From Haloquadratum walsbyi J07HQW1 (GTDB taxonomy: Archaea > Halobacteriota > Halobacteria > Halobacteriales > Haloferacaceae), in the NCBI GenBank assembly GCA_000415965.1, contig KE356560.1, positions 2,229,501 to 2,293,500 on the forward strand: a stretch of 64,000 bases of DNA, given 5' to 3'. The first letter of the stretch is position 1. Each line of letters starts with the position of its first letter. Below are positions 1 through 12,072 of the stretch, one piece after another. The notes under the pieces are model-generated. The model saw nothing but the letters and a program-made list of their open reading frames with translations, made no database searches and was not told where the DNA came from. The translations under genes and the position numbers were made by a program.

Positions 1-1588
1 CGTCCACCTCGATGGGATAACCAAACGGTTTCCTGGTGTCGTTGCGAACGATAACATCGACTTCGAGGTCAAGCAGGGGACTGTTCACGCGCTGTTAGGG
101 GAGAACGGCGCCGGGAAAACAACCCTGATGAATGTTCTCTATGGGCTGTATGAGCCCACCTCGGGACGAGTCGAAGTTGCCGGCGAAGATCGGGATTTCG
201 ACTCCCCGCGGGACGCCATTGACGCCGGCATCGGAATGATTCACCAGCACTTCATGCTCGTTGACCCGATGACAGTGGTCGAAAACATCACGCTTGGCAA
301 CGAACCGCGGAAATGGGGTGGGCTCGCAGTCGACCGGACCGCAGCCAGGGAGGCCGTGGTTGAGATCGCCGGTCGCTATGGGTTCGATATCGACCCCAAC
401 GCTCGGATTGAGGACATCTCAGTCGGCGAACAACAGCGTGTCGAAATCCTGAAAGCGCTGTACCGCGGCGCCGACACGCTGATTCTTGATGAGCCAACGG
501 CAGTGTTGACCCCTCAAGAGATCGAGGAGTTGTTCAGCGTACTCGAAGAGTTAACTGCTCAGGGAAAAACGATCATCTTCATCACGCATAAATTGGGCGA
601 GGCTATGCGGGCTGCAGACGAGATTACTGTCCTGCGGGACGGTCAGAGGGTCGACACTGTCGACGCCGGTACCACTACCCGTAATGCCCTCGCGGAGTTG
701 ATGATCGGTCGGGAGGTGCTGCTTGATATCGACCGTCCGTCGACCGAAACGGGGGGCGTGGTGGCGTCGGTTTCCGACCTGGTTGTCGATGACGACCGCG
801 GGGTTCGGGCGGTCGATACTGTCGATTTCGAGGTCTGTGCAGGTGAAATACTCGGGATTGCCGGTGTCGATGGCAACGGTCAGTCGGAACTCATCGAGGC
901 AATCACAGGCTTGCGAGCCCCAGAGACCGGTACGATCCGGTTGCTCGACGACAACGTGACAGACAACTCCCGACGCCAGCGGATTGAGGCTGGGATGGCA
1001 TATATCCCAGAAGACAGACAGGACCGGGGGGTGGTGATGGATTTTGACCTGGTAGGCAACGCACTGTTGGGCAGCCAACACTCATCGGAGTTTAGATCGA
1101 GCGGTCGGGTCAATTGGGACGAGACCAGAGAGCATGCCAAGACTATCATTAACGAGTATGACGTGCGGACGCCCGGTGCCGACACCTCCGCAGCGTCACT
1201 GTCAGGCGGGAACCAGCAGAAGTTCATCGTCGGTCGGGAGTTCGAACGCAACCCCGAGTTCGTGGTTGCGTCGAACCCGACTCGGGGTGTCGATGTAGGA
1301 TCAATCGAGTTCATCCACGAGCGGTTACTAGAGCTCCGAGAGGCAGGGGTTGCGATCCTCCTGGTCTCTTCGAAACTCAAGGAGGTTCAAGAGCTCTCCG
1401 ACCGGCTGGCGGTGATGTACGAGGGTGAGTTTATTGATCTGGTCGATCCCACGACGACGACAGAATCCGAACTTGGGTTGCTGATGGCTGGGCAGCAACC
1501 GGACGACACCGGTGGTGACGAACGCGAGGGCGAATCGGACCTGACTGAGGACCCGACTGATGTCACCACGGGCGGTGAGCGGGTGTGA
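1..1588 (+). CDS. BMP-family (nucleoside/simple sugar) ABC transporter ATP-binding protein, 5' end outside window
   Basis: The reading frame is open from base 2, so the true start lies left of the window. It encodes a double ABC ATPase of the RbsA/NupO type that energises import through two permeases at the membrane. The first domain has an intact Walker A (GENGAGKTT, bases 98-124), a VGEQQR signature and a LILDEPTA Walker B. The second has the degenerate P-loop GVDGNGQSEL, a LSGGNQQK signature and ASNPTRGVD in place of a normal Walker B, as is usual for this subfamily. Its stop overlaps the next gene by 4 nt, which indicates translational coupling. Family membership suggests a nucleoside or basic-membrane-protein (BMP) type substrate; the binding lipoprotein is probably just left of the window. 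Base composition is clearly GC-richer than the rest of the window. Confidence 0.93.
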   Translation, partial: VHLDGITKRFPGVVANDNIDFEVKQGTVHALLGENGAGKTTLMNVLYGLYEPTSGRVEVAGEDRDFDSPRDAIDAGIGMIHQHFMLVDPMTVVENITLGNEPRKWGGLAVDRTAAREAVVEIAGRYGFDIDPNARIEDISVGEQQRVEILKALYRGADTLILDEPTAVLTPQEIEELFSVLEELTAQGKTIIFITHKLGEAMRAADEITVLRDGQRVDTVDAGTTTRNALAELMIGREVLLDIDRPSTETGGVVASVSDLVVDDDRGVRAVDTVDFEVCAGEILGIAGVDGNGQSELIEAITGLRAPETGTIRLLDDNVTDNSRRQRIEAGMAYIPEDRQDRGVVMDFDLVGNALLGSQHSSEFRSSGRVNWDETREHAKTIINEYDVRTPGADTSAASLSGGNQQKFIVGREFERNPEFVVASNPTRGVDVGSIEFIHERLLELREAGVAILLVSSKLKEVQELSDRLAVMYEGEFIDLVDPTTTTESELGLLMAGQQPDDTGGDEREGESDLTEDPTDVTTGGERV

Positions 1589-2814
1589 GCGTGATCGACC
1601 ACGCCCGTCGAGTCCTTGAGCGGTTGGTGGCGGCGTCGGCGACCGAACGGATCCTAATTAGCTCGGCGGCGCTGCTGCTTTCGATCCTGCTCGGCGCCCT
1701 GCTAGTGTTAATCGCCGGTCGAATGACGACGTGCACCGTGGGCGATGCGGTCTATTACTTTGGGACTGGGTTCTGCTACAATCCAGTTTTAGTGTTCGAC
1801 CGGTTGTTCCTCGGGGCGCTCGGCGATCCATTCAGCGGCGCGTGGTCTCCGGAGGGACAGTTTTCGGTGACACTCCGTGAGACTACGCTTCTGATCTTCA
1901 CTGGGCTGTCGGTCGCCTTGGCGTTTCAAGCGGGCATCTTTAATATCGGAACGCAGGGTCAGATGGTGGTCGGCGGGCTCGCAACCGCGGTTCTTGTGCT
2001 CCAGGCCTCAAGTGTGGTTTCGGGCGTCATCGGATCTGTTCTCTTGATTCCGTTCGGAGTCGTGGTTGGCGTAGTCTCTGGCGGGCTTTATGGGTCGATT
2101 CCGGGGATTTTGAAGGCTTATGCCGACGCAAACGAGGTGATCACGACAATCATGCTCAACTTCATCGCCACCGGGGTGACGCTGTATCTCGTTAGTGGCG
2201 TGTTCAAAGACCCCGAAAGTCCAGCGAACCGGACTGTGCCATTACCCGAGTACGCCCAGTTTCCCACAGTCCTATTCGGCGGTCGCCAGGACTTCTCGCT
2301 CGTCGCGCTGGCGTGTGGGCTGCTGGCAATCGGCGGACTCTACTATCTGCTCGAATACACGGCGTTCGGCTACGATATCCAGACCAGCGGGCTCCAACCC
2401 GGCGCCGCGGAGTACGGCGGTGTCGACGCCAAACGGACCGTCGTCGCGAGTCTCACGCTCTCAGGGGCGCTTGGTGGCGTTGCTGGTTCGATGTACGTGA
2501 TGATGGTACTGGGGACATTCCAGTCAGGGCTGCCCGCATACGGCTTTGACGGAATTACTGTTTCGATCCTCGCAGGTAACAATCCTGCAGGAATTGCGTT
2601 TACAGCGCTTCTGTTCGGCATTCTTAAGAGCGGCACCACAGTTGTCCAGTTTGCGACGGATGTGCCACCACAACTCGTCGGTGTTCTCCGCGGGCTGATT
2701 ATTCTGTTCGTGGCGATGCCGGAGTTCTTCCGAATGGTGGGTCAGCGGGTTGTCGACCCTGGATCGAAACCGGTCGCAACCCATGATGGGAATGTGGAGG
2801 CAACTGATGAGTGA
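1585..2814 (+). CDS. BMP-family ABC transporter permease 1
   Basis: A 409-residue polytopic membrane protein of the BPD_transp_2 type (RbsC/NupP-like), one half of the pore of the nucleoside-type importer. It begins with a GTG overlapping the ATPase stop (GTGA). The N-terminal region has one hydrophobic helix, a polar loop containing cysteines, then dense hydrophobic segments. A conserved-looking stretch GIFNIGTQGQMVVGG is typical of this permease family, where the motif faces the ATPase or the channel. Its last codons overlap the next permease by 8 nt. Two adjacent, different permeases after one double ATPase is the standard layout of BMP transporters. Confidence 0.92.
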   Translation: MSVIDHARRVLERLVAASATERILISSAALLLSILLGALLVLIAGRMTTCTVGDAVYYFGTGFCYNPVLVFDRLFLGALGDPFSGAWSPEGQFSVTLRETTLLIFTGLSVALAFQAGIFNIGTQGQMVVGGLATAVLVLQASSVVSGVIGSVLLIPFGVVVGVVSGGLYGSIPGILKAYADANEVITTIMLNFIATGVTLYLVSGVFKDPESPANRTVPLPEYAQFPTVLFGGRQDFSLVALACGLLAIGGLYYLLEYTAFGYDIQTSGLQPGAAEYGGVDAKRTVVASLTLSGALGGVAGSMYVMMVLGTFQSGLPAYGFDGITVSILAGNNPAGIAFTALLFGILKSGTTVVQFATDVPPQLVGVLRGLIILFVAMPEFFRMVGQRVVDPGSKPVATHDGNVEATDE

Positions 2815-3928
2815 CTCCTCGTCAAAGACCACTGAAGTGGACACTAGTGGAGACCCGAAGCCGGATCAGGAAGCGACTCGCGAGAAGGGACTGCTGGCGT
2901 CGCAGTCGTCCCGCGAACTGACCGCGTGGGCGGCGGTCGGGTTAATCGCGGCGCTGCTTCTCGGCGGAACAGCGTTCCCAGACACAATTTTAGGGATCCT
3001 CGCCGATATTATCACCGACAAGGACACGTTTGCTGCGGCACTCCGACTGTCGGTCCCAATCGCATTTGCCGCGCTCGGGGGAATATTCTCGGAGAAAGCG
3101 GGTGTTATCAACATCGGCCTGGAAGGGCTGCTTATCATCTCAGCGTTCACCGCAATCTACGTCACTGATATCACTGGCGAAATCTGGGTCGGGTTCAGCG
3201 GCGGCGTGGTCGCGAGTGTGCTGCTCGCACTGCTTTTCGCGGTTGTTACAATCGAGTTCCGCGCCGACCAGATCATCGCAGGATTGGCGGTGTGGTTGAT
3301 TGCGCTGGGACTCGCCCCCTTCGCATCGCAGGTCATCTACAATAGCCCCAACACCCCGACAGTGGGGACAACCGGATCTATCAGTGTGCCGGTGCTCGCG
3401 GAGATTCCCTTTTTCGGTGCGCTGTTCTCAGCGTCGCCATCGGTGTATATGCTCCTCATCGCGGTGATAGCTTCGTGGTACGTCTTTGAGCGGACCGCGT
3501 TCGGTCGATGGATCCGGGCGAGCGGTGAGAACCCGAAGGCGCTTGACACTGCCGGGGTGAATGTCAACCGAGTCCGATACGCGGGGGTGCTCATCTCGGG
3601 CGTCCTCGCGGGGATGGGCGGGTCGGCGCTGTCGCTCGACCTTGGACAGTTCACCGGGAATGGGCCGACGATGGTCAACGGAAAGGGATTTATTGCCATC
3701 GTGGCATATTTGTTCGGGAACTACAATCCGATTGGGGCGTTCTTGGCAACGATGCTGTTCGCGGGACTTGATGCGATTCAGACGGTATTCCAACTCCAGG
3801 GGATTGGTCTGCCACAGCAACTCATCCGAGTCATCCCATTTGTAATGGTGATTGTCATTCTCGCCTTTGTTGGTCGGACGCGACTTCCTGAAGCCGCCGG
3901 CGAGCACTATGAGTCCGGCGAAAAGTAG
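2807..3928 (+). CDS. BMP-family ABC transporter permease 2
   Basis: A 373-residue membrane permease, paralogous to the preceding one (EKAGVINIGLEGLL corresponds to its NIGTQGQM motif). I chose ATG 2807 rather than the upstream in-frame codon at 2750, because it yields the compact ATGAGTGA overlap with the upstream stop and avoids a long overlap. A charged, Ser/Asp-rich N-terminus of about 40 residues precedes roughly eight to ten hydrophobic segments. With the two upstream genes it completes an importer. A nucleoside hydrolase at 44.4 kb could use such substrates, but that link is only inferred. Confidence 0.92.
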   Translation: MSDSSSKTTEVDTSGDPKPDQEATREKGLLASQSSRELTAWAAVGLIAALLLGGTAFPDTILGILADIITDKDTFAAALRLSVPIAFAALGGIFSEKAGVINIGLEGLLIISAFTAIYVTDITGEIWVGFSGGVVASVLLALLFAVVTIEFRADQIIAGLAVWLIALGLAPFASQVIYNSPNTPTVGTTGSISVPVLAEIPFFGALFSASPSVYMLLIAVIASWYVFERTAFGRWIRASGENPKALDTAGVNVNRVRYAGVLISGVLAGMGGSALSLDLGQFTGNGPTMVNGKGFIAIVAYLFGNYNPIGAFLATMLFAGLDAIQTVFQLQGIGLPQQLIRVIPFVMVIVILAFVGRTRLPEAAGEHYESGEK

Positions 3929-4735
3929 GGTCTAAGCGAGAAAGCACAACTACAACAGCACGCCCGTTAACTGGGATGGGGGATGGAGGATTTTGATTGC
4001 ATAGCAGAGACATGATGATGATCACTTCTCACAAGTCCGGTGTCGTTGGCGTCGGCGCCAGCGCCAGGACAGCCAGGAGTTACGCCGCGGACGAGAGTCT
4101 CAATGGTGCGGTCGTTAAGCCGGAGACCATTTGGGGAATCCGGTCACATCGCGTGTGATAACGGGGAAAAACTGCGGACATATTTGTTCGAATCGGCTTC
4201 GAAACCGCAGATCGCGAGTGAGTTCGCCAGCATCAGTGCTGAGTATGATCACTTCGAAATTCTGCAGGAGGGCACTGTTCTTGATATCCCCTCTATGGAA
4301 CTCGCGGTCATTAATCGGTTGGAGCTCGGGCGACTCCCGATTAGGGGCGTGGAGTTGGCGGACGCTGAATTCCACTACGACATGGTGTGGTCTAAGACGT
4401 GACACAGGCGGGCGACGGAACGGTCACCGGGACTCGTGGGAACTGACTGGGCTCGTCAAATATGTCGTCGATATCATCATTGACGACGCAGGTGCGCTGT
4501 CGGTCCTGCAAGACAAGACCGGGGTTTCGGATACTCAGTGCGATGCTAACGTGGTGTACTTGCAGTTTTGTTCGGTCTATGTGGGGTCACGGAGGTCGAA
4601 GAGTCCGTGAAGTATGACGGCACCCAATGCTCAAATTAATCGAACACACGACGGGCTATCCTTGGTGACGATTTCCGCGGACACATATCATAAACGTCAG
4701 AGTTGACTTCCAAACGAATGAAAACCGATATGATT
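3929..4735. other. gene-poor stretch with a possible decayed coding fragment
   Basis: No convincing intact gene. Between about 4150 and 4610 two overlapping plus-strand frames look protein-like in succession: one ends at 4402 after a segment reading DIPSMELAVINRLELG, the other then reads ELTGLVKYVVDIIIDDAG up to 4610. This could be one gene with a frameshift near 4400, but I recognise no family. The GC-rich character of the ABC genes fades across this stretch. Confidence 0.35.
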
Positions 4736-4737
4736 GG

Positions 4738-4815
4738 TGAACTACTTCGGGGTCGCATCAACATCGGTATCAGTATCAAAACCCTGAGGCACTCGCCTTG
4801 ATATCTGTAGATGGT
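4738..4815 (+). repeat. H-family hairpin repeat, copy 1
   Basis: Begins TGAACTACTTCGGGGTC and closes with ACCCTGAGGCACTCG, followed after about 10 nt by a CTGTA box. The stem halves pair with some G-T wobble. It shares the TGAAC lead, the stem and the CTGTA box with copies at 23352, 39758, 40022-40084 (minus), 52512 and 56287-56351 (minus). Confidence 0.7.
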
Positions 4816-5099
4816 GCTGAAAACGTGCAGAAGCTTCGTATGTGGAGAGGAAGCCGCGAACTCGACGTTGAATGAGCGCCAGTCCGCCAACAAAACATAC
4901 CATGCGTTCGGACTTCTCTCCAGTTTCACAACCTGTTCAGTTGTAAAGCTCGTTCGCTTGTGTTAGTAGTGATGTTCAATTGATTATTTCAGACAAATTT
5001 GATCAACCCTCTTCGGCATACCCGAAGTGGGCAAGAGACAACGTTTCAACGGTGGGTAGCTCAAAGATCAATAACATAAACAGCAATACGTTATGAACT

Positions 5100-5470
5100 A
5101 TCCGTCCTGCTTGGTCTGAGGGTTTCGCTGAGGGCCGGGGCTTCCTGCTTCCACGACGTTGTCAGACTGCGTCTGACAGCCCACCAGACGGAGTCTGGTG
5201 AACGCGCTTTGCAGGAACTATAGTGGTTCCCGGGAGCGCAGTCTCAACAGGTGTTTGACGAGAGCGAAGCTCTCGGTCGCACATCAGAATCGTTCTGCGA
5301 TTCTGAGGACGTGGCTCCGGAGTGTCCCACTCGTGTTGCTCGACGGGGTAATGCCGTGAGACGACGCATCTTGATGCGTTTGAACGCTACACATATCCAT
5401 CAGGTTCGTAAGGAGTGAGTCGTTTCAGACGGAACGATGAGCGAGTCGAAGCCGATAGGTCAAACGCATA
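5100..5470 (+). mobile_element. decayed IS200/IS605 (IS1341-type) element end with nested palindromes
   Basis: Contains GGGCTTCCTG followed by a short GC run and later CCGGAGTGTCCCACTC. Both tracts recur in the same relative order on the minus strand at 53310-53482, so the two are copies of one transposon-end family. Five short perfect palindromes interrupt this copy at 5160-5178, 5182-5200, 5259-5275, 5285-5305 and 5364-5379. No intact transposase frame remains. No gene is seen from here to 5598. Confidence 0.6.
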
Positions 5471-5598
5471 TGTTGCATCTAGGCTAGGTGTTCTGCGATA
5501 TAACTGCTTGCGTGGGTCTGTGGGCTGCAACAGAACAGAGGACAGAAAACAGTGTGTGAATAGATGATGACGGCGGCTTCACGCCTGCGATTAGCTAA

Positions 5599-6342
5599 TT
5601 ATTCTTCAGATTCGCCGGTACCCTCGTATTCTGCAAGAATAGGTTCGATATCACTATCACTACGTTCACGGTACCCATCCGCGTCAACAATGCCAACGCA
5701 TACCTCAGAGGCACTCAATTCCGCGTCAGTTTGTAATAACGCTCGAACGGCGACGTCAACACCATCACCAACAGTAAGATTTTGACTCCACTCTTCTTCG
5801 AGGAATGTCTGGAGTTCATCACGGCCATTGCCGATTGCCACTGCTTTCCACTCCTGTGGTGCACCGGATGGGTCCGTCTCAAAGAGTCGTGGATCTGGGT
5901 CGGATTTGCTCCCATCAACACCTGCAATAAGCAGCGCCGCTCCGAATGGACGTGTACCACCAATCTGTGTGCTTTCTTGGATCTCATCAGAAAGTGCACG
6001 CGTGAGTGCTCGAACATCCATCGGCTCACCGTAGCGAAGTCGGTTTCGCTGTGCGGCTGTTTGTGCATCATCGATGAGTTTTCGGGCGTCCGCCACGTGA
6101 CCTGCGGATGCGGCGCCGATATATTCATCAAGTTTATGTAGTTTCTCAATACTCTCAGCTTCCATTAATGAAGAGCTCGTTCGTCGTTGAGCTGCGATGA
6201 CGACCCCATCGGTCGTTCGAACACCAAGGCTTGGCGCTCCACGGTTAACTGCCTCACGCGCATACTCAACCTGATATATTCGTCCATCGGGAGAAAATAG
6301 CGACGTGCCCCGGTCATACGCCTGCTTATCATTACGGTTCAT
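5599..6342 (-). CDS. psmA: 20S proteasome alpha subunit
   Basis: A 247-residue Ntn-hydrolase-fold protein forming the outer, non-catalytic rings of the archaeal 20S proteasome, which gate substrate entry for ATP-dependent unfoldases. The N-terminus carries the alpha-subunit signature (YDRGTSLFSPDGRIYQVEYA) and the GAPSLGVRT strand. An acidic tail ends in ESEE. I start at ATG 6342; the longer frame to 6387 adds 15 residues unlike any alpha subunit. A TATTT-type box at 6367-6373 lies 25-31 nt upstream of this ATG, consistent with a leaderless transcript. The gene stands alone; no beta subunit is in the window. Confidence 0.95.
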   Translation of the reverse strand: MNRNDKQAYDRGTSLFSPDGRIYQVEYAREAVNRGAPSLGVRTTDGVVIAAQRRTSSSLMEAESIEKLHKLDEYIGAASAGHVADARKLIDDAQTAAQRNRLRYGEPMDVRALTRALSDEIQESTQIGGTRPFGAALLIAGVDGSKSDPDPRLFETDPSGAPQEWKAVAIGNGRDELQTFLEEEWSQNLTVGDGVDVAVRALLQTDAELSASEVCVGIVDADGYRERSDSDIEPILAEYEGTGESEE

Positions 6343-6366
6343 GAAATAATAGTTGCATCCGCGGAC

Positions 6367-6373
6367 AAATAAA
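6367..6373 (-). promoter_or_regulatory. TATA-like box of psmA
   Basis: TTTATTT on the minus strand, 25-31 nt upstream of ATG 6342. The spacing fits leaderless transcription and supports the chosen start. Confidence 0.5.
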
Positions 6374-6579
6374 GCCACCACCGTCACCTGATGTTACCGG
6401 AATCGGTGGTGAACCGTTCAAAATGACGCTACCCCTCAAGAGATACCACAGGCAAATACACTCAATTGCCGAACCAGAGCGCCCGGATGAGATCGAAATG
6501 TCTGTGAATCTTGCTTCTGTCGAAGAGTCTATTACTGTGCATACTGTCGGTGAGCAGGATCTCAGATAAACTCCCGAAT

Positions 6580-6730
6580 CCAATAACAGCTGTTGGGACT
6601 GTGAGTGTTGGTATTCGAAACAAAACGGAACGCACACACAGGCGTTCTAGGTCCAGATGAACTAAGTCTGCGGTGGGTTCAGAGAGAAATACTGCTTAGA
6701 GTGCCACCGATTCAGAAAGACAGGTAGCCG
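6580..6730 (+). repeat. D-family dispersed repeat, copy A (within gene-free 6388-6785)
   Basis: The stretch from CAATAACAGCTGTTGGGAC onward aligns over about 130 nt with 14641-14775, sharing CGGAACGC, a GATGAACT box and a downstream segment readable as REKYCLECHR. Shorter matches occur at 9925-10068 (minus), 10635-10745 and 23530-23660 (minus). It lies directly beyond the 3' end of the dihydrofolate reductase gene. The remainder of 6388-6579 shows nothing I can support. Confidence 0.65.
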
Positions 6731-6785
6731 ATGAAACGCTCAGCACCGATGCCGACAAAACACGATTATTCATACTTGAGAGTAA

Positions 6786-7373
6786 TCATGGTGTTCGCGT
6801 ATACGTCACAAAGTCAAATGTCTCATGATTTTCACGTGTCAACTCCTTCCATGTGGAGCTGTCCCACGACGGGAATCGTGTGTCTCCATCATATTCATCG
6901 TGTAATTCTGTCAGGCGCAACCGGTCTGCAAGGGGCAGAAATTGCTCGTACACGCCGCCGCCGCCTGCAACATAGACAGTTTCGACGCCGCGCTCATGAG
7001 CGTTTTTTGATGCTTCCCGAATCGCACTCGTGATTGAGTGCACTAAGATCACATCAGTCGGTACATCACGTGACTGTGATGAAAGAACGATACTGGTACG
7101 TCCCGGGAATGGCTCACCAAGTGCATCAATAATCGTCTCATATGTTCGACGACCGAGAATAACCGGATGACCCATGGTTCGGTGTTTGAACTGCTGAAGA
7201 TCAGCCGGAATGTGCCATGGCATCTCTCCGTCCCGACCAATGACCCCATTTGCCGCAACAGCGGCGATGAGTACAATATCAACGTCAATATCAATATCAA
7301 TATCAACATTCTCAGTGTGCTGCAGGTTCGATTCCTCCGCGGATGAACGACCATCCGAGTTGATATCACTCAT
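6786..7373 (-). CDS. folA: dihydrofolate reductase
   Basis: A 195-residue enzyme reducing dihydrofolate with NADPH, needed to recycle folate after thymidylate synthesis. The core begins around residue 33 with IVLIAAVAANGVIGRDG and MPWHIPADLQQFKH, followed by GHPVILGRRTYETI and the cofactor-binding VYVAGGGGVYEQFL. The first 30 residues are an acidic, low-complexity lead (alternating Asp and Ile) encoded by a hexanucleotide microsatellite near 7277-7310; several haloarchaeal genes here carry such stuffing. The ATG overlaps the thymidylate synthase stop by one base (TAATG), so the two are co-translated. Haloarchaea have two DHFR types, and I cannot tell which paralog this is. Confidence 0.92.
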   Translation of the reverse strand: MSDINSDGRSSAEESNLQHTENVDIDIDIDVDIVLIAAVAANGVIGRDGEMPWHIPADLQQFKHRTMGHPVILGRRTYETIIDALGEPFPGRTSIVLSSQSRDVPTDVILVHSITSAIREASKNAHERGVETVYVAGGGGVYEQFLPLADRLRLTELHDEYDGDTRFPSWDSSTWKELTRENHETFDFVTYTRTP

Positions 7374-8383
7374 TATTCAGCCACCGCAAATTGAATCGCT
7401 GGTGCAGGATCATATTCAGTGAGATGGATATTTTCAATGCCAAGATCGTCTAATGAGACATCATCAATTGCGATCTGTGGCTTCGACCGTGGAGTGCGTG
7501 CGCACTGTTTGAGTAATCCAGGAATATGATCATACCCTGATGTCTCTGCTGGCTCTGATGGTGCGGACTCAACTAGCCAAGCACGGACATCGCGATATTC
7601 GGCTGGGTCATCAACGGCTTCCAGGCGCGTTTGGAGAGATTCGAGTGTCCCTTCCTCACCGTACCATTCGCCCCGGTTGCCCATTCCACAGTAAATATGT
7701 GCATCAACGATAGAATGTGCAAACGTTCCTGGAGTGAGTTCACTCTGCTGTGCAACAACTGTCGCAAGTAAAGCGTATGCAGCAATATTGAATGGCACGC
7801 CAAGGGCAATATCACCGGATCGCTGGGTGAGATGTACGTTTAATCGATTGTCCTGAACATTGAATACAAAGGTATAATGACACGGGGGAAGTGTCGAAAC
7901 AGCAGCGTTCGCGGGGTGCCATGCTGAGACAACAATTCGTCGAGACTGTGGATTCTCTCGTAATTGCTCGATTGCGTATGCAAGCTGATCGAAAGTTCCA
8001 TCATCATTTCGCCAACGATGATCATCAACTGGCCACGCCTCACCAGGCAACTGTGAATCGGTTGATGGAACCGGGTATCGTCGCCAAAATCGACCATAAG
8101 CGGTCTCAAGTCGTCCATCCTCGTCTGCCCACGCATCCCAAATACTCGTTTCCTCACGGAGGGATTGAATATGTTCTTCACCAGAGAGATACCAGATAAA
8201 CTCAGAGAGAAGTGAGTGCCATCGAGACCCAGAAAGGTCTTTAGTCGTTAATAATGGAAATCCATCGCTCAGATCAACTGTATAATGTTGACTAAATGAA
8301 GAGATGGTATCGACACCGGTGCGATTTGGTTTGTGTTCACCGGAGCGAAGAACAGCGGTGACGAGGTCACGGTACTGATGCAT
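7373..8383 (-). CDS. thyA: thymidylate synthase
   Basis: A 336-residue folate-dependent thymidylate synthase converting dUMP to dTMP while oxidising methylene-THF to dihydrofolate. Visible family motifs are the catalytic Cys in LPPCHYTFVF, the dUMP-binding QRSGDIALGVPFNIAAY and the C-terminal IEIHLTEYDP-like segment (here IENIHLTEYDP). It is the first gene of a two-gene unit with dihydrofolate reductase, the enzyme that recycles its product. The N-terminal GEHKPNRTGVDTISSF is standard. The protein is longer than the E. coli enzyme, with inserts in the middle (EAWPVDDHRWRNDD). Confidence 0.94.
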   Translation of the reverse strand: MHQYRDLVTAVLRSGEHKPNRTGVDTISSFSQHYTVDLSDGFPLLTTKDLSGSRWHSLLSEFIWYLSGEEHIQSLREETSIWDAWADEDGRLETAYGRFWRRYPVPSTDSQLPGEAWPVDDHRWRNDDGTFDQLAYAIEQLRENPQSRRIVVSAWHPANAAVSTLPPCHYTFVFNVQDNRLNVHLTQRSGDIALGVPFNIAAYALLATVVAQQSELTPGTFAHSIVDAHIYCGMGNRGEWYGEEGTLESLQTRLEAVDDPAEYRDVRAWLVESAPSEPAETSGYDHIPGLLKQCARTPRSKPQIAIDDVSLDDLGIENIHLTEYDPAPAIQFAVAE

Positions 8384-8888
8384 GAGCTATCTCTAATTAT
8401 GGCGTTCAGTTATCTGTGTTGATTGTTGCAGAGTGTGGAGCGATTAGCTTAGTGGGTTCAAAAAACGTCGGTCCGACCCCGATCCGACCGCAAATTCGGG
8501 GTCGAATCCAATAATTTCGAGCGTGAGATGTCCCGTATTGGCGATATGACTCACACACGCCCGAATCTTCTCCGTGGCAAAGGCGCAAAGGCGTTCATAC
8601 TCGATTGTGGGAGCGAGCCAATTTACAGTCTCGTTGTTACTTTCGCTGATGGAACCATCAGTATCGTTATGATTCTACTTTGGGATACCGAGATCAGTTC
8701 AATATTTATGCCGGTTTTATCTAGGATGGCTACCTCAAAGCCTCAATCGATGATTGATATGCATCGCATCTGCGGGTGCCGGTTATACTTGGAGATGAGA
8801 GCACACCCATTCAATAGTAATTTATATTGATCGTGTTATCTGATGTTCGAACAGAAAAGCCGAAAGCATCGGCGAGTAAGGGAATGAT
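8384..8888. pseudogene. intergenic stretch with a start-less coding fragment on the minus strand
   Basis: On the minus strand from about 8685 to 8447 one frame stays open for about 75 codons, reading for example YERLCAFATEKIRACVSHIA and LEIIGFDPEFAVGS, and ends at a TAA. It is preceded by a stop and has no usable start codon. I do not recognise the family. TAATTTATATTG at 8818-8829 is a TATA-like box that could serve the MBL-fold gene downstream. Confidence 0.4.
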
Positions 8889-9467
8889 ATGATACAGAAT
8901 ATCGCCGGTAATGTCCGCGCATTTACTTCGAACGTATTCCTCGTTACGGGAGAAACAACTGCGCTCATCGATGCAGGATCGAACTTCGATGTTATTGCTC
9001 GGATACAAGAACACACTGAGCAGATTGATCGCCTCTATCTCACGCATACACATGTTGATCATATCGAGAATGTCCCATCAGTTCGTGACGCATTTAGTAT
9101 TGAAACGTGGGGTTATGACACGACACACGACGTTGTTGACCATGCAATCCAAGATGAGGAATTAGTCCCGATTGGCGATGAGACGTATATGACGCTTCAC
9201 ACGCCAGGACACAAACCTGATCATCTGTGCTTCTATGCCGCTGATATCGGTATTTGCTTTGGTGGTGACCTCATCTTCGCTAACGGGAGCTTTGGACGGA
9301 CTGATCTTGAGGGAGGGGATCGAAAAACACTGATTCAAAGCATCGATCGCTTAAGTGACGTGGTCACTGATGATCTCACCACGATTTATGTTGGACATGG
9401 TCCAGCAATCACATCGGATCCACAGGAAGAAATCAATCTGGCCGCACAGGCTGCCCGACTGTCATAA
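8889..9467 (+). CDS. MBL-fold metallo-hydrolase
   Basis: A 192-residue metallo-beta-lactamase-fold hydrolase. The zinc ligands are visible: THTHVDHI (H53, H55, D57, H58), TPGH (H108), GGDLIF (D127) and GHGP (H170). The size and the short single domain resemble glyoxalase II-like or YcbL-type hydrolases, but the substrate cannot be inferred. The gene is monocistronic, convergent with the following minus-strand gene. A TATA-like box about 60 nt upstream suggests a short leader. Confidence 0.85.
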   Translation: MIQNIAGNVRAFTSNVFLVTGETTALIDAGSNFDVIARIQEHTEQIDRLYLTHTHVDHIENVPSVRDAFSIETWGYDTTHDVVDHAIQDEELVPIGDETYMTLHTPGHKPDHLCFYAADIGICFGGDLIFANGSFGRTDLEGGDRKTLIQSIDRLSDVVTDDLTTIYVGHGPAITSDPQEEINLAAQAARLS

Positions 9468-9545
9468 CTCACCGTCAGATTTGTTCGCACCAAGGCGGTT
9501 GATATATGACCTACAACTCAGTATGCAATATTTCGACCCGACGTG

Positions 9546-9848
9546 TTATGCATCTGCGTTATCGGGGACAGATGCTGTTTGTGTTTCACGCCTGAGCCCA
9601 AAATAACCTGGTTCATCACCAACAGGGTCGTTGATTACAAGCTCATCAGCATGCGCCATGAGCCATGGAATCGTCCATGCGACGACGCGTTCTTCGGTCT
9701 CAGATGGCAGATCGGCGCCTGGGTCTAATCCTTGTAAAAGACGGGCTATCTCATCGACCGTATACATCAATTCAGCGTCCAGTATCTCTGCGGGTTTATA
9801 TAATTGATATGGATACAGTGTTTCAAATGCATCCTTTGGTCTGGGCAT
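9546..9848 (-). CDS. conserved haloarchaeal protein (DUF5827-like)
   Basis: About 100 residues when started at ATG 9848 (MPRPKDAFETLYPYQLY); an upstream in-frame ATG at 9896 would add 16 residues. It is acidic and soluble with no transmembrane segment. It contains WTIPWLMAHADEL and ends in a disordered tail. I recall this family as haloarchaeal DUF5827, but the function is unknown and the assignment is from memory. The codon use and acidic composition support a real gene. Confidence 0.75.
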   Translation of the reverse strand: MPRPKDAFETLYPYQLYKPAEILDAELMYTVDEIARLLQGLDPGADLPSETEERVVAWTIPWLMAHADELVINDPVGDEPGYFGLRRETQTASVPDNADA

Positions 9849-9924
9849 ATAGATACTTACGCCTGAATTAACGTGAATGCCTGGGGTGATGCGCACAGTC
9901 GTTTTGTGATGAGAGTACTCTTAC

Positions 9925-10068
9925 GATACCAGTCGGTTCAATCTGAGCTTTCTCTCCGAACCCACATTTAGACTCAATTCACCTGAACCTGACCTGGAAC
10001 GCCTGTGTGCGCGTTCCGCTTCACATTCGAAAGAGAAAATCAAATTCCCAACAACTGATACACACAGA
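9925..10068 (-). repeat. D-family dispersed repeat, copy B
   Basis: On the minus strand it reads CAGTTGTTGGGAATTTGATT, then GCGGAACGCGCACACAGG, CGTTCCAGGTCAG and GTGGGTTCGGAGAGAAA. These match copies at 6580, 10635, 14641 and 23530. Translation gives KRNAHTGVPGQ, comparable with QRNAHTGVPVEF in the 23.5-kb copy. Confidence 0.65.
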
Positions 10069-10237
10069 GAATACTGAGTTTTTTTCTCAGTTCAGTCGCT
10101 CTTGCTTACCGCTGATATGAGCGCTTCATACGGAGAGACAACTGAGGATAAAAAACCAAGACTTGAGCTGAGAGAATAATTATCCTCCTTCGAGTGACGA
10201 TACAGCGACAAGTGCATACCTGAATCGTCACCCACAT

Positions 10238-10290
10238 ACCCGGCACCGGCACCGGCACCGGCACCGGCACCGGCAGCGACACCCGCACCC
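10238..10290. repeat. hexanucleotide microsatellite, noncoding
   Basis: At least five consecutive GGCACC units followed by degenerate units, between copy B of the D repeat and a small zinc-finger gene. No coding frame uses it convincingly. Confidence 0.8.
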
Positions 10291-10375
10291 GTAGTCGTTT
10301 ATTCCCGCGGGCACAATCATATGATAGATATGATGAACTCTCTAACTCGGAGAGTTTGCAACAAAACAGAAAATA

Positions 10376-10531
10376 ATGACTGACTCACCCTCAATCATTG
10401 ATGACTATATTGGATATTATGAATGTCGATGCGGCAAAGGGTTCTTGAGTGAAACAGATGCTCGAAACCATATCCAACAATGTTCAGCAATGCCACATGT
10501 CGGCACGAATCAAAGGCAGTGTGATGAGTGA
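10376..10531 (+). CDS. small zinc-finger-like protein, 51 residues
   Basis: An ATG at 10376 opens a 51-codon frame ending in TGA at 10529-10531. It reads MTDSPSIIDDYIGYYECRCG, then KGFLSETDARNHIQQC. The pattern Cys-x-Cys ... His-x4-Cys resembles a single C2H2/C2HC-type finger. Haloarchaea encode many such one-domain zinc microproteins, some regulatory. It lies between D-repeat copies B and C. I do not know a specific function; the finger pattern and acidic N-terminus favour a real gene. Confidence 0.6.
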   Translation: MTDSPSIIDDYIGYYECRCGKGFLSETDARNHIQQCSAMPHVGTNQRQCDE

Positions 10532-10536
10532 AATAA

Positions 10537-10610
10537 CAGTGAACTACCCCACCCTACTCGCTCACCCTGACGGGCTTGCTACTTGAGGAAGGGGTTCCGC
10601 CCTTGATTTG
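10537..10610 (+). mobile_element. IS200/IS605-type terminal sequence fragment
   Basis: TGAACTACCCCACCCTACTC followed by a short GC-rich imperfect hairpin. The same TGAACTACCCAC...CTACTCACTCACC lead is found on the minus strand at 53062-53095, next to the tnpB element. Only the end is left. Confidence 0.45.
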
Positions 10611-10634
10611 AGATCACAGAGAGATTTCTTCACG

Positions 10635-10745
10635 GTTATTGATACTGTGATTTCTGTCTCCGAAGCGGAACACGCACACGACCGGCTCAAGGTAAACTGA
10701 GTGTGGGTTCGGAAAAAACACTGGTCATCTTACCAACGACTGTTA
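10635..10745 (+). repeat. D-family dispersed repeat, copy C
   Basis: Shares CTGTCTCCGAAGCGGAAC, CACGCACAC and GTGTGGGTTCGG with the other D copies and ends near AACACTGGTCATCTTACC, like copy E. It is shortened in the middle. The remaining bases up to the sod gene (10746-10877) hold nothing I can support. Confidence 0.55.
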
Positions 10746-10877
10746 CACACATCACGTCTACGGATGTCTTTCCGATGTACAGATATGACACTTATGATTG
10801 TATAAGTTCACAAAAAATACAGGATGTTGTTTGACGACGGGATCCAGCTTCAGCTTCCGCTTCAGTATAGCCGCGAC

Positions 10878-11477
10878 TTATTCGAAGAGCTCGACGGCTT
10901 GTGCGTACCGTTGGCTTGGCTCTTCCCAGTCAACAACCTCAAAGAATGCATCAACGAAATCACCGCGAGCTGGACCATAATCATGGTAATATGAATGTTC
11001 CCAGACGTCCAATGAGAGGATTGGGTGGGCACCCCAGAAAGCACCTTCGTCATGATTATCGACGACAATATTCCGTAGTTGGTTTGAGAATGAATCGTAC
11101 ACTAAGAGTGCCCAACCGCTCGCATCGCCTGCAGCGGCTTCAAATTCACCCCTCCAGGCGTCATATGACCCGAAGTCTTCCTCAATTCGGTCTCCAAGGT
11201 CACCCGTCGGCTCGTCGCCACCCTCTGGTGACATACATTGCCAGAACAGGTCATGGAGGAGATGACCGGAACTGTTGTGCGTAACATCGCGAATGGCACC
11301 TGCAGACGATGAGAAGTCGTGTGAGTCACGGTTCTCCTCAAGTTCCGCCTCGGCGTCATTCCATCCATTGACATACCCTTGTTGATGGGTATCGTGATGC
11401 CACGTCAGTACCTGTTCGGACAACTGTGGTTCGAGCGCATCGTATTCGTATGGTAGTGGGTCAAGTTCGTAGCTCAT
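10878..11477 (-). CDS. sod: superoxide dismutase (Mn/Fe family)
   Basis: A 199-residue Mn/Fe superoxide dismutase that disproportionates superoxide in the cytoplasm. The four metal ligands can be placed at H27 (in WHHDTH), H75 (GHLLHDLFW), D157 and H161 (LDVWEHSYYHDY). The protein begins MSYELDPLPYEYDALEP, as expected for the family. Length and motifs are complete. A GGAGG Shine-Dalgarno-like box 11 nt before the ATG, and a TATA-like box about 40 nt upstream, indicate a short-leadered transcript, unlike many neighbours. Confidence 0.95.
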   Translation of the reverse strand: MSYELDPLPYEYDALEPQLSEQVLTWHHDTHQQGYVNGWNDAEAELEENRDSHDFSSSAGAIRDVTHNSSGHLLHDLFWQCMSPEGGDEPTGDLGDRIEEDFGSYDAWRGEFEAAAGDASGWALLVYDSFSNQLRNIVVDNHDEGAFWGAHPILSLDVWEHSYYHDYGPARGDFVDAFFEVVDWEEPSQRYAQAVELFE

Positions 11478-11487
11478 AATGAATCTG

Positions 11488-11526
11488 CCTCCATTACATA
11501 TTGTGTGGCGGTTCGGGTTAAATCTT
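11488..11526 (-). promoter_or_regulatory. sod Shine-Dalgarno site and TATA-like box
   Basis: On the minus strand GGAGG (11488-11492) lies 11 nt before ATG 11477. GATTTAACC lies at about 11518-11526, roughly 27 nt before the expected transcript start near 11494. Confidence 0.5.
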
Positions 11527-11643
11527 GAGAGGGACGTGTTAACATGCTGCTAATGAATGGTATCTCATTTCAAATAGATGATGACTATACGACCAGCAGT
11601 TGTCCCGAACAGCGTTTTTGATGCTCGGGCATCTTATGCCATT

Positions 11644-12072
11644 ATGAGCGACAACGAAGCGAATGAAGAAGCATCTCCGGGAGCAGATGATTTGCGAGAT
11701 CGGAATGTCCATGGTGAACCGCTCCAGCCGTGTGGACGGGACCCTGAGACGGGGTATCTGAGAGACGGGCATTGTCGAAATCTCCGTCGAGACCCCGGTC
11801 GACACGAAGTCTGTGCGGTACTCACACAGGAATTTCTTGAATATAGTAAAGCACAGGGAAATGACCTCACCACGCCACGTCCGTCATTGAATTTCCCTGG
11901 ACTTACTCCCGGTGATCGATGGTGTCTGTGCGTTCCTCGATGGGCTGAAGCACATGAAGCAGACTGCGCACCCCCCGTTGTCTTGGATGCAACGAGTGAG
12001 GCTGTTATCGATGATATTCCACTCTCAACGCTCGAATCATACGCTGCTGAAGAATGGGGCGACCTGCCATGA
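11644..12072 (+). CDS. DUF2237 family protein
   Basis: A 142-residue protein of a family conserved in bacteria and haloarchaea with no established function. The hallmarks are NVHGEPLQPCGRDPETGYLR, VCAVLTQEFLEYSKAQGNDL and PGLTPGDRWCLCVPRWAEA with several conserved cysteines, suggesting redox or metal binding. I start at ATG 11644 (MSDNEANEEA); an upstream frame to 11578 adds non-family residues. The gene is monocistronic and divergent from sod. The C-terminus is acidic and extended beyond the core. Confidence 0.85.
   Translation: MSDNEANEEASPGADDLRDRNVHGEPLQPCGRDPETGYLRDGHCRNLRRDPGRHEVCAVLTQEFLEYSKAQGNDLTTPRPSLNFPGLTPGDRWCLCVPRWAEAHEADCAPPVVLDATSEAVIDDIPLSTLESYAAEEWGDLP

Follow-up and report, generated by a model that had tools for sequence, protein, structure and literature searches.

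A GC-Rich BMP-Type Importer Operon in Haloquadratum, Partly Ameliorated and Probably Acquired From a Halobellus-Group Haloarchaeon

Gene Content and Base Composition of the Locus

The DNA analyzed here (the window) is a stretch of 64,000 bases, positions 2229501-2293500 of the single scaffold (3,475,501 bases, 49% GC) of Haloquadratum walsbyi J07HQW1 (genome code G000), and its first 4 kb hold a GC-rich block of genes for an ATP-binding cassette (ABC) transporter. Three genes on the forward strand were found in the block. The first encodes an ATP-binding subunit with two ABC domains (2..1588; PF00005 in two stretches, E 5.9e-47; 528 amino acids, the first few codons being lost in a scaffold gap), and its stop overlaps by four bases with permease 1 (1585..2814; PF02653, E 2.3e-47; 409 amino acids). 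Permease 2 (2750..3928; PF02653, E 3.7e-39) has a longest open reading frame (ORF) of 392 amino acids; alignment to relatives places its true start probably at ~2807, giving 373 amino acids. Fifty Ns lie directly left of window base 1, and the binding-protein gene of this genome is in or beyond that gap.

The binding-protein gene is present in the two other Haloquadratum genomes compared, G009 and Hqr. walsbyi C23 (G012; closed, with a chromosome of 3,148,033 bases); the window genome and G009 are composite metagenome scaffolds. The C23 locus is free of Ns and encodes, over 5145 bases with a GC content of 58%, a BMP/PnrA-type lipoprotein (L084:12018-13160; PF02608, E 1.8e-53), the ATPase and then permeases 1 and 2; the debris and psmA of the window follow here as well. 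An ATPase with two ABC domains is encoded in one operon with a pair of BPD_transp_2 permeases, as is characteristic of this importer family, and the block makes up the greater part of a four-gene operon for a BMP/PnrA-type ABC importer (binding lipoprotein, ATPase and two permeases). The initial annotation had described a three-gene block spanning 1-4000. Its step in GC was recovered, but its extent was not, as the window cuts the unit and a fourth, equally GC-rich gene lies upstream in C23. The ATPase of the type strain C23 is frameshifted into two overlapping ORFs of 322 and 276 amino acids (L084:13225-14822), whereas the window-genome copy is open; the frameshift raises the prospect that the importer may be dying in C23.

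Across 500-base windows of positions 1-4000, GC content ranged from 57.2 to 61.4%. To the right it was 55.6% at 4001-4500, 47.6% at 4501-5000 and 53.4% at 5001-5500, settling at 48-52% between 5.5 and 8 kb. The genome background, taken from 340 1-kb bins in 17 of 20 fetched stretches spread over the window genome, had a mean of 49.4% (standard deviation, sd, 3.1), with 1.2% of bins above 57%. GC content at third codon positions (GC3) was 0.684 in the ATPase, 0.677 in permease 1 and 0.697 in permease 2, against a mean of 0.448 (sd 0.060) for 200 other window-genome ORFs of at least 200 amino acids, and each of the three genes exceeded all 200 (203 ORFs compared). By tetranucleotide distance from the median, window 1-4000 ranked first among 116 4-kb windows. 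The block thus shows the compositional anomaly of a genomic island, and these measurements, with GC3 far from uniform across the window, agree with the initial description of a block near 60% GC with G/C-favoring codon thirds in a low-GC chromosome. Four other stretches of the window genome (L039:12001-16000, L043:1-4000, L043:8001-12000 and L050:17574-18491) rank just below the block in GC or tetranucleotide deviance and are possibly further acquired islands.

Relationship to the Halobellus Group

The closest relatives of the operon outside Haloquadratum were found in the Halobellus group, the GC-rich genomes that include G004, G005, Hbl. rarus (G011), Hbl. rufus (G002) and Hbl. clavatus (G007). 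All four operon genes are 80-88% identical to those of G004/G005. The window ATPase is 84% identical to that of G004 and 81% to that of G005, permease 1 is 98% identical to C23, 95% to G009, 88% to G005 and 85% to G004, and permease 2 is 95% identical to C23, 85% to G005 and 83% to G004; ATPase comparisons with G009 were shortened by an N gap inside its ATPase. Of 60 relatives, 45 carried the permease, as did 14 of the 16 genomes coded as the same genus, including all 12 GC-rich ones; it was not found in the low-GC sister genomes of Haloquadratum (G001 and G016), both of which are incomplete.

In the permease 1 tree (30 rows), the three Haloquadratum rows nest with G004 and G005 with support of 100/100. 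The same group was recovered at 100/100 in a concatenated operon tree of 33 rows chosen out of 80 loci, in which the frameshifted C23 ATPase was placed in two pieces on window coordinates. A topology with the GC-rich rows together and Haloquadratum outside was rejected for the operon (approximately unbiased test, p 4.5e-15). A species tree of rpoA1, rpoB1, psmA, dfrA and part of thyA used 22 of 28 searched genomes (two were without rpoA1, and G036, G039, G043 and G045 were dropped) and grouped Haloquadratum with its low-GC sisters at 98/97; grouping Haloquadratum with G004 and G005 without these sisters was rejected by the species data (p 5e-5).

Divergence was assessed for each gene as its identity to G004 minus the G004-G010 identity, G010 being another member of the donor group. 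Orthologs were taken from direct tblastn, with those below 45% identity kept out of medians, and genes were excluded when their G004-G010 identity was below 55% or when they did not lie at the same place; a first ortholog list from reciprocal ORFs was set aside, since long spurious ORFs in GC-rich DNA had taken the place of true genes. The operon genes scored +2.9 (binding protein), +1.1 (permease 1), +0.4 (ATPase) and -6.1 (permease 2), compared with a mean of -19.5 and a maximum of -0.8 for 45 other genes. Thus three of the four operon genes, and none of the 45 others, are nearer to G004 than G010 is. With C23 as the focus, the values were +2.9 for the binding protein, +2.0 and -0.8 for the C and N parts of the ATPase, +0.9 for permease 1 and -2.7 for permease 2, against a background maximum of -2.9 (15 genes).

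All Haloquadratum copies of the operon have a GC3 of 0.64-0.70, versus 0.87-0.92 in G004/G005. At 0.68, the operon lies midway between donor group (0.90) and host (~0.43, median 0.432), or ~46% along the donor-to-host path. On the stem common to the three Haloquadratum copies, 165 third-position changes were from GC to AT and 11 from AT to GC, an AT-ward bias as expected for GC-rich DNA in an AT-driving host. The initial annotation had called the transfer recent. With the operon nearly half ameliorated and present in C23 and G009 as well as in the window genome, this dating is not supported as it was worded. Its proposal of a GC-rich haloarchaeal source fared better: the operon trees place the genes inside the GC-rich clade, and divergence, composition and the operon tree narrow the source to the Halobellus group, with G004 and G005 nearest. 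We put at roughly four in five the probability that a Haloquadratum lineage acquired the operon from a GC-rich Halobellus-group haloarchaeon related to these two genomes and that the operon has since drifted about halfway to host composition. As such, it is a well-supported, clear case of a partly ameliorated operon transfer of a known, ordinary kind.

The C23 and G009 copies are homologous from 64 bases before the binding-protein start to 15 bases past the permease 2 stop. This right end of the shared transferred unit falls at window 3943 (C23 L084 17177) in blastn, so that 3929..3943 (forward strand) are the last bases homologous to the G009 copy. Just upstream of the operon, a region with what we take to be a TTTAT box shows visible conservation with G004, G005 and G013, including the start context in G004/G005. 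The conserved upstream region and the shared homology ends argue that the transferred unit is a transcription unit with its own promoter. Several Halorubrum (e.g., salsamenti and persicum; L099-L106, L163-L172) have a Halobellus-type copy of the operon with 76-81% permease identity, the version in other Halorubrum being near 56%, which suggests frequent movement of the operon among haloarchaea.

Insertion Site and Scaffold Structure

To the right of the operon lies a decayed geranylgeranyl-reductase-like flavin adenine dinucleotide (FAD) oxidoreductase (4040..4610, forward strand), here called the wreck, with fragments 47% and 55% identical to G004 L090:6856-8232 (reverse strand). Intact relatives at 77-78% were found elsewhere, at G000 798015-799385, G012 655273-656643 and G009 2730723-2732093. 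It is followed by the H repeat (5081..5590, unstranded), an IS605/IS1341-type (TnpB) remnant or PATE-like repeat, whose part from ~5258 is the right arm of an interrupted element. Matching pieces number 28 in the window genome, 22 in C23 and 5 in G009. In alignment, the repeat corresponds to the 3' portion of an IS605/IS1341-type (TnpB) remnant that is uninterrupted in L035; the TnpB label comes from the reading frame and from PMC3119063, and Pfam gave no match for a 140-amino-acid fragment of this putative remnant. According to that paper, PATEs with palindromes and broken IS605 elements abound in Haloquadratum and are often targets of other elements. No Rfam match was obtained in window 1-12000. 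The initial annotation had set a possible gene wreck and the repeat at the GC change, and both are there, as a pseudogene and a multi-copy IS605-type remnant; they do not bound the unit, which in the C23-G009 comparison ends before them. At psmA (proteasome alpha; 5599..6387, reverse strand; PF00227), the host right flank, divergence is back to normal.

In the window genome and in C23, the operon is flanked by a short-chain dehydrogenase (SDR) gene and by psmA and lies within an IS605-type element. In G009, SDR and psmA are ~155 bases apart with nothing between them and no Ns, which constitutes an uninterrupted site. The upstream contig of the window scaffold (L035:15626-17758) likewise runs from SDR through a continuous IS605 remnant into the 3' end of psmA, where a 30-N gap follows. 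When C23 is aligned with this contig, the left part matches to L084 11941 and the right part from 18483, with 6541 bases replacing 401. This alignment of empty and occupied sites indicates that the operon and its debris interrupt an IS605-type element. Over the wider region L035:15626-19950 (G000 2225126-2229450), the scaffold also carries part of a second H repeat together with the psmA 3' end (94% to window 5294-5782); 30 Ns come next, then a GC-rich fragment of a UvrD/PD-(D/E)XK helicase-nuclease, and finally 50 Ns. The window scaffold therefore likely consists here of strain variants in a row: a contig with the empty site, a GC-rich helicase/nuclease contig and one with the occupied site.

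The nearest tRNA gene (Glu) is ~1.3 kb from the left junction with SDR between, and the flanks are parts of one IS605-type element rather than att repeats; a tRNA- or integrase-borne island was ruled out, as no such gene is at the junctions. A recent plasmid source was also set aside, the best of 242 plasmid records being 66.7% identical over 80% of the query, which is kin and not a close copy.

Silent Divergence and Alternative Explanations

A number of observations weigh against the transfer history proposed here. In both composites, N gaps border the operon contig (left of the window; inside the ATPase and ~250 bases past permease 2 in G009), the G009 operon is placed at a distance of ~370 kb with N gaps around it, which makes its position uncertain, and strain mixing in composite scaffolds could mimic exchange. 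Permease 2, the weakest of the four genes, alone fails the divergence test. In the species tree, monophyly of the GC-rich Halobellus group is supported at just 49/59, and the species data do not reject a group of Haloquadratum, its low-GC sisters, G004 and G005 (p 0.065). As this node is weakly resolved, topology by itself cannot exclude descent, and the case for transfer rests more on divergence and composition than on the tree. No integrase or mobility gene was recognized at the block (Pfam, ORFs between the permeases and psmA), and the scanned viral contigs held no relative of the operon, by which a viral vector was ruled out.

Silent sites were compared between the Haloquadratum copies. 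Between the window genome and C23, identity at four-fold degenerate sites is 0.89-0.94 in the operon (permeases 0.89 and 0.94), versus a background of 0.668 (sd 0.057, n=40). The value is 0.83 for permease 1 between the window genome and G009 (background 0.607, n=30) and 0.77-0.90 for the operon between C23 and G009 (background 0.615, sd 0.050, n=21). In sampled genes the window genome is slightly nearer to C23 than G009 is, at odds with the published accounts of these strains. Codon selection was ruled out as the cause of the low divergence between copies: the operon genes of the window genome and C23 share 95-97% nucleotide identity, and the largely non-coding debris at 4040-5590 is nearly as conserved (91.9-94.5%). 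The low silent divergence suggests that the operon later spread between Haloquadratum lineages, provided that strains are not mixed in the composite assemblies. The simplest history has a single arrival, amelioration common to all copies and then exchange among Haloquadratum lineages; the later spread itself is an unproven hint. At two further loci, window 10878-11477 and L034:17967-19283, four-fold identity to C23 is 0.79 and 0.81 against a background of 0.67, and these are perhaps other tracts recombined between Haloquadratum lineages.

An assembly effect could account for part of this pattern. The first 5.6 kb may be a contig of a walsbyi-like strain joined to the psmA of the window genome at the H repeat, in which case the operon transfer would be real and the interspecies spread would not be established. 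Where the H repeat gives way to psmA, identity to C23 does drop, from 94.5% to 88%, and psmA has a four-fold identity of 0.68; the same scaffold contains the uninterrupted-site contig and N gaps of 20-50 bases, and the source paper terms the Lake Tyrrell Haloquadratum assemblies composite genomes (PMC3630111). However, the gene identity to C23 is lower than would be expected within walsbyi proper, for which PMC4330952 gives transporter proteins of C23 and DSM16790 averaging 98-99%. Furthermore, the closed C23 chromosome has the same gene order, and C23 and G009, a comparison involving a different contig, give the same low silent divergence. We consider the assembly effect rather unlikely.

The direct donor could instead have been an unsampled lineage with a genome GC near 58%, with little or no amelioration in Haloquadratum, as the near-equal GC3 of the three copies would fit. 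The AT-ward trend continues in later Haloquadratum branches, however (AT-ward to GC-ward third-position changes of 52:3 in G009, 29:2 on the stem of the window genome and C23, 52:26 in C23 and 19:9 in the window genome), so that the sequences are not at equilibrium, and no such lineage appears among the rows of either the permease or the operon tree, which makes this donor improbable. Vertical inheritance from a Halobellus-Haloquadratum ancestor, with codon selection keeping GC high while the genome turned AT-rich, would suit the permease in every GC-rich same-genus genome and the species grouping that the data allow, but is very improbable given an operon divergence from G004 far too small beside 45 other genes, a GC3 reached by no other sampled ORF, the uninterrupted site in G009, no copy seen in the incomplete low-GC sisters, and silent-site identity between Haloquadratum copies far above background together with conserved debris beyond the reach of codon selection.

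Returning to transfer from the Halobellus group, a fuller history can be offered tentatively. The operon and its promoter may form a traveling nucleoside-uptake module that entered once from a Halobellus-like donor, became half ameliorated in one lineage and then, by recombination at IS605/PATE debris, spread between Haloquadratum species and reached two or more places, with the same site both occupied and empty in the Lake Tyrrell population. A Haloquadratum lineage would have acquired the operon with its own promoter from a donor near G004/G005, with insertion or exchange perhaps using the abundant IS605 remnants as homology. The operon would then have ameliorated about halfway toward host composition and, after this first arrival, may have been passed between Haloquadratum lineages. 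The imported nucleosides might serve salvage or ribose catabolism.

The locus offers a case in which a whole uptake operon crossed a ~20-point GC gap into one of the most abundant salt-lake archaea, and base composition puts the events in temporal order. One can still see the donor group, the recipient site and the half-erased composition, and the contrast at silent sites tells the first arrival apart from later spread. In this region the composite scaffold from Lake Tyrrell seems to join empty-site and occupied-site contigs, which calls for caution among its users. Among the papers listed on Haloquadratum gene transfer, amelioration and transporters (for the last, 10 of 190), no title or abstract opening concerned this operon, and we do not claim that it is unreported.

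Comparison With Known Transport Systems

PnrA and BmpD bind nucleosides. Among the best sequence matches of the C23 binding protein to solved structures (E 9e-42 to 7e-31) are Lbp (7x0r), PnrA/TmpC (2fqw) and Borrelia BmpD (6shu), which are BMP lipoproteins like it (PF02608), the likeness being that of whole-sequence matches; these three are bacterial proteins, whereas that of C23 is archaeal. From the family it is likely that the operon imports nucleosides. A vitamin-B6 label (NCBIfam NF047928-NF047930) was rejected, the scores of 470/670, 193/465 and 130/400 bits all being below the curated cut-offs. Variant ABC transporters are mentioned among these genomes in PMC4330952.

The window genome contains a second BMP-type operon (G000 1842863-1847972; L036:7863-12972) with the same kinds of genes and a PF02608 binding protein. 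Its permeases are 28-32% identical to those of the block, its GC is near 49% and an amidohydrolase gene adjoins it. The Halobellus-group operon (G004 L090, G005 L088, Hbl. rarus, rufus and clavatus) has the same four genes in the same order as that of Haloquadratum, but its neighbors differ, with a phosphomutase upstream and, in G004, Thi4 and other thiamine-type genes downstream. In G004 this cluster, in which Pfam recognizes Thi4 and inspection by eye suggests TenA- and ThiD-like genes, lies together with a FAD reductase of the wreck family at L090:6856-11272, and G005 has a different gene downstream of the operon.

An archaeal parallel in gene content is NupDABC (TK0657-TK0660) of Thermococcus kodakarensis, which PMC12628685 presents as a BMP-family nucleoside ABC transporter supported by the growth of evolved strains. 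Like the C23 operon, it is archaeal and has four genes, with the binding protein first, then the ATPase and the two permeases. Nucleoside transport by NupDABC is backed by growth, whereas the substrate of the Haloquadratum operon is predicted from its family.

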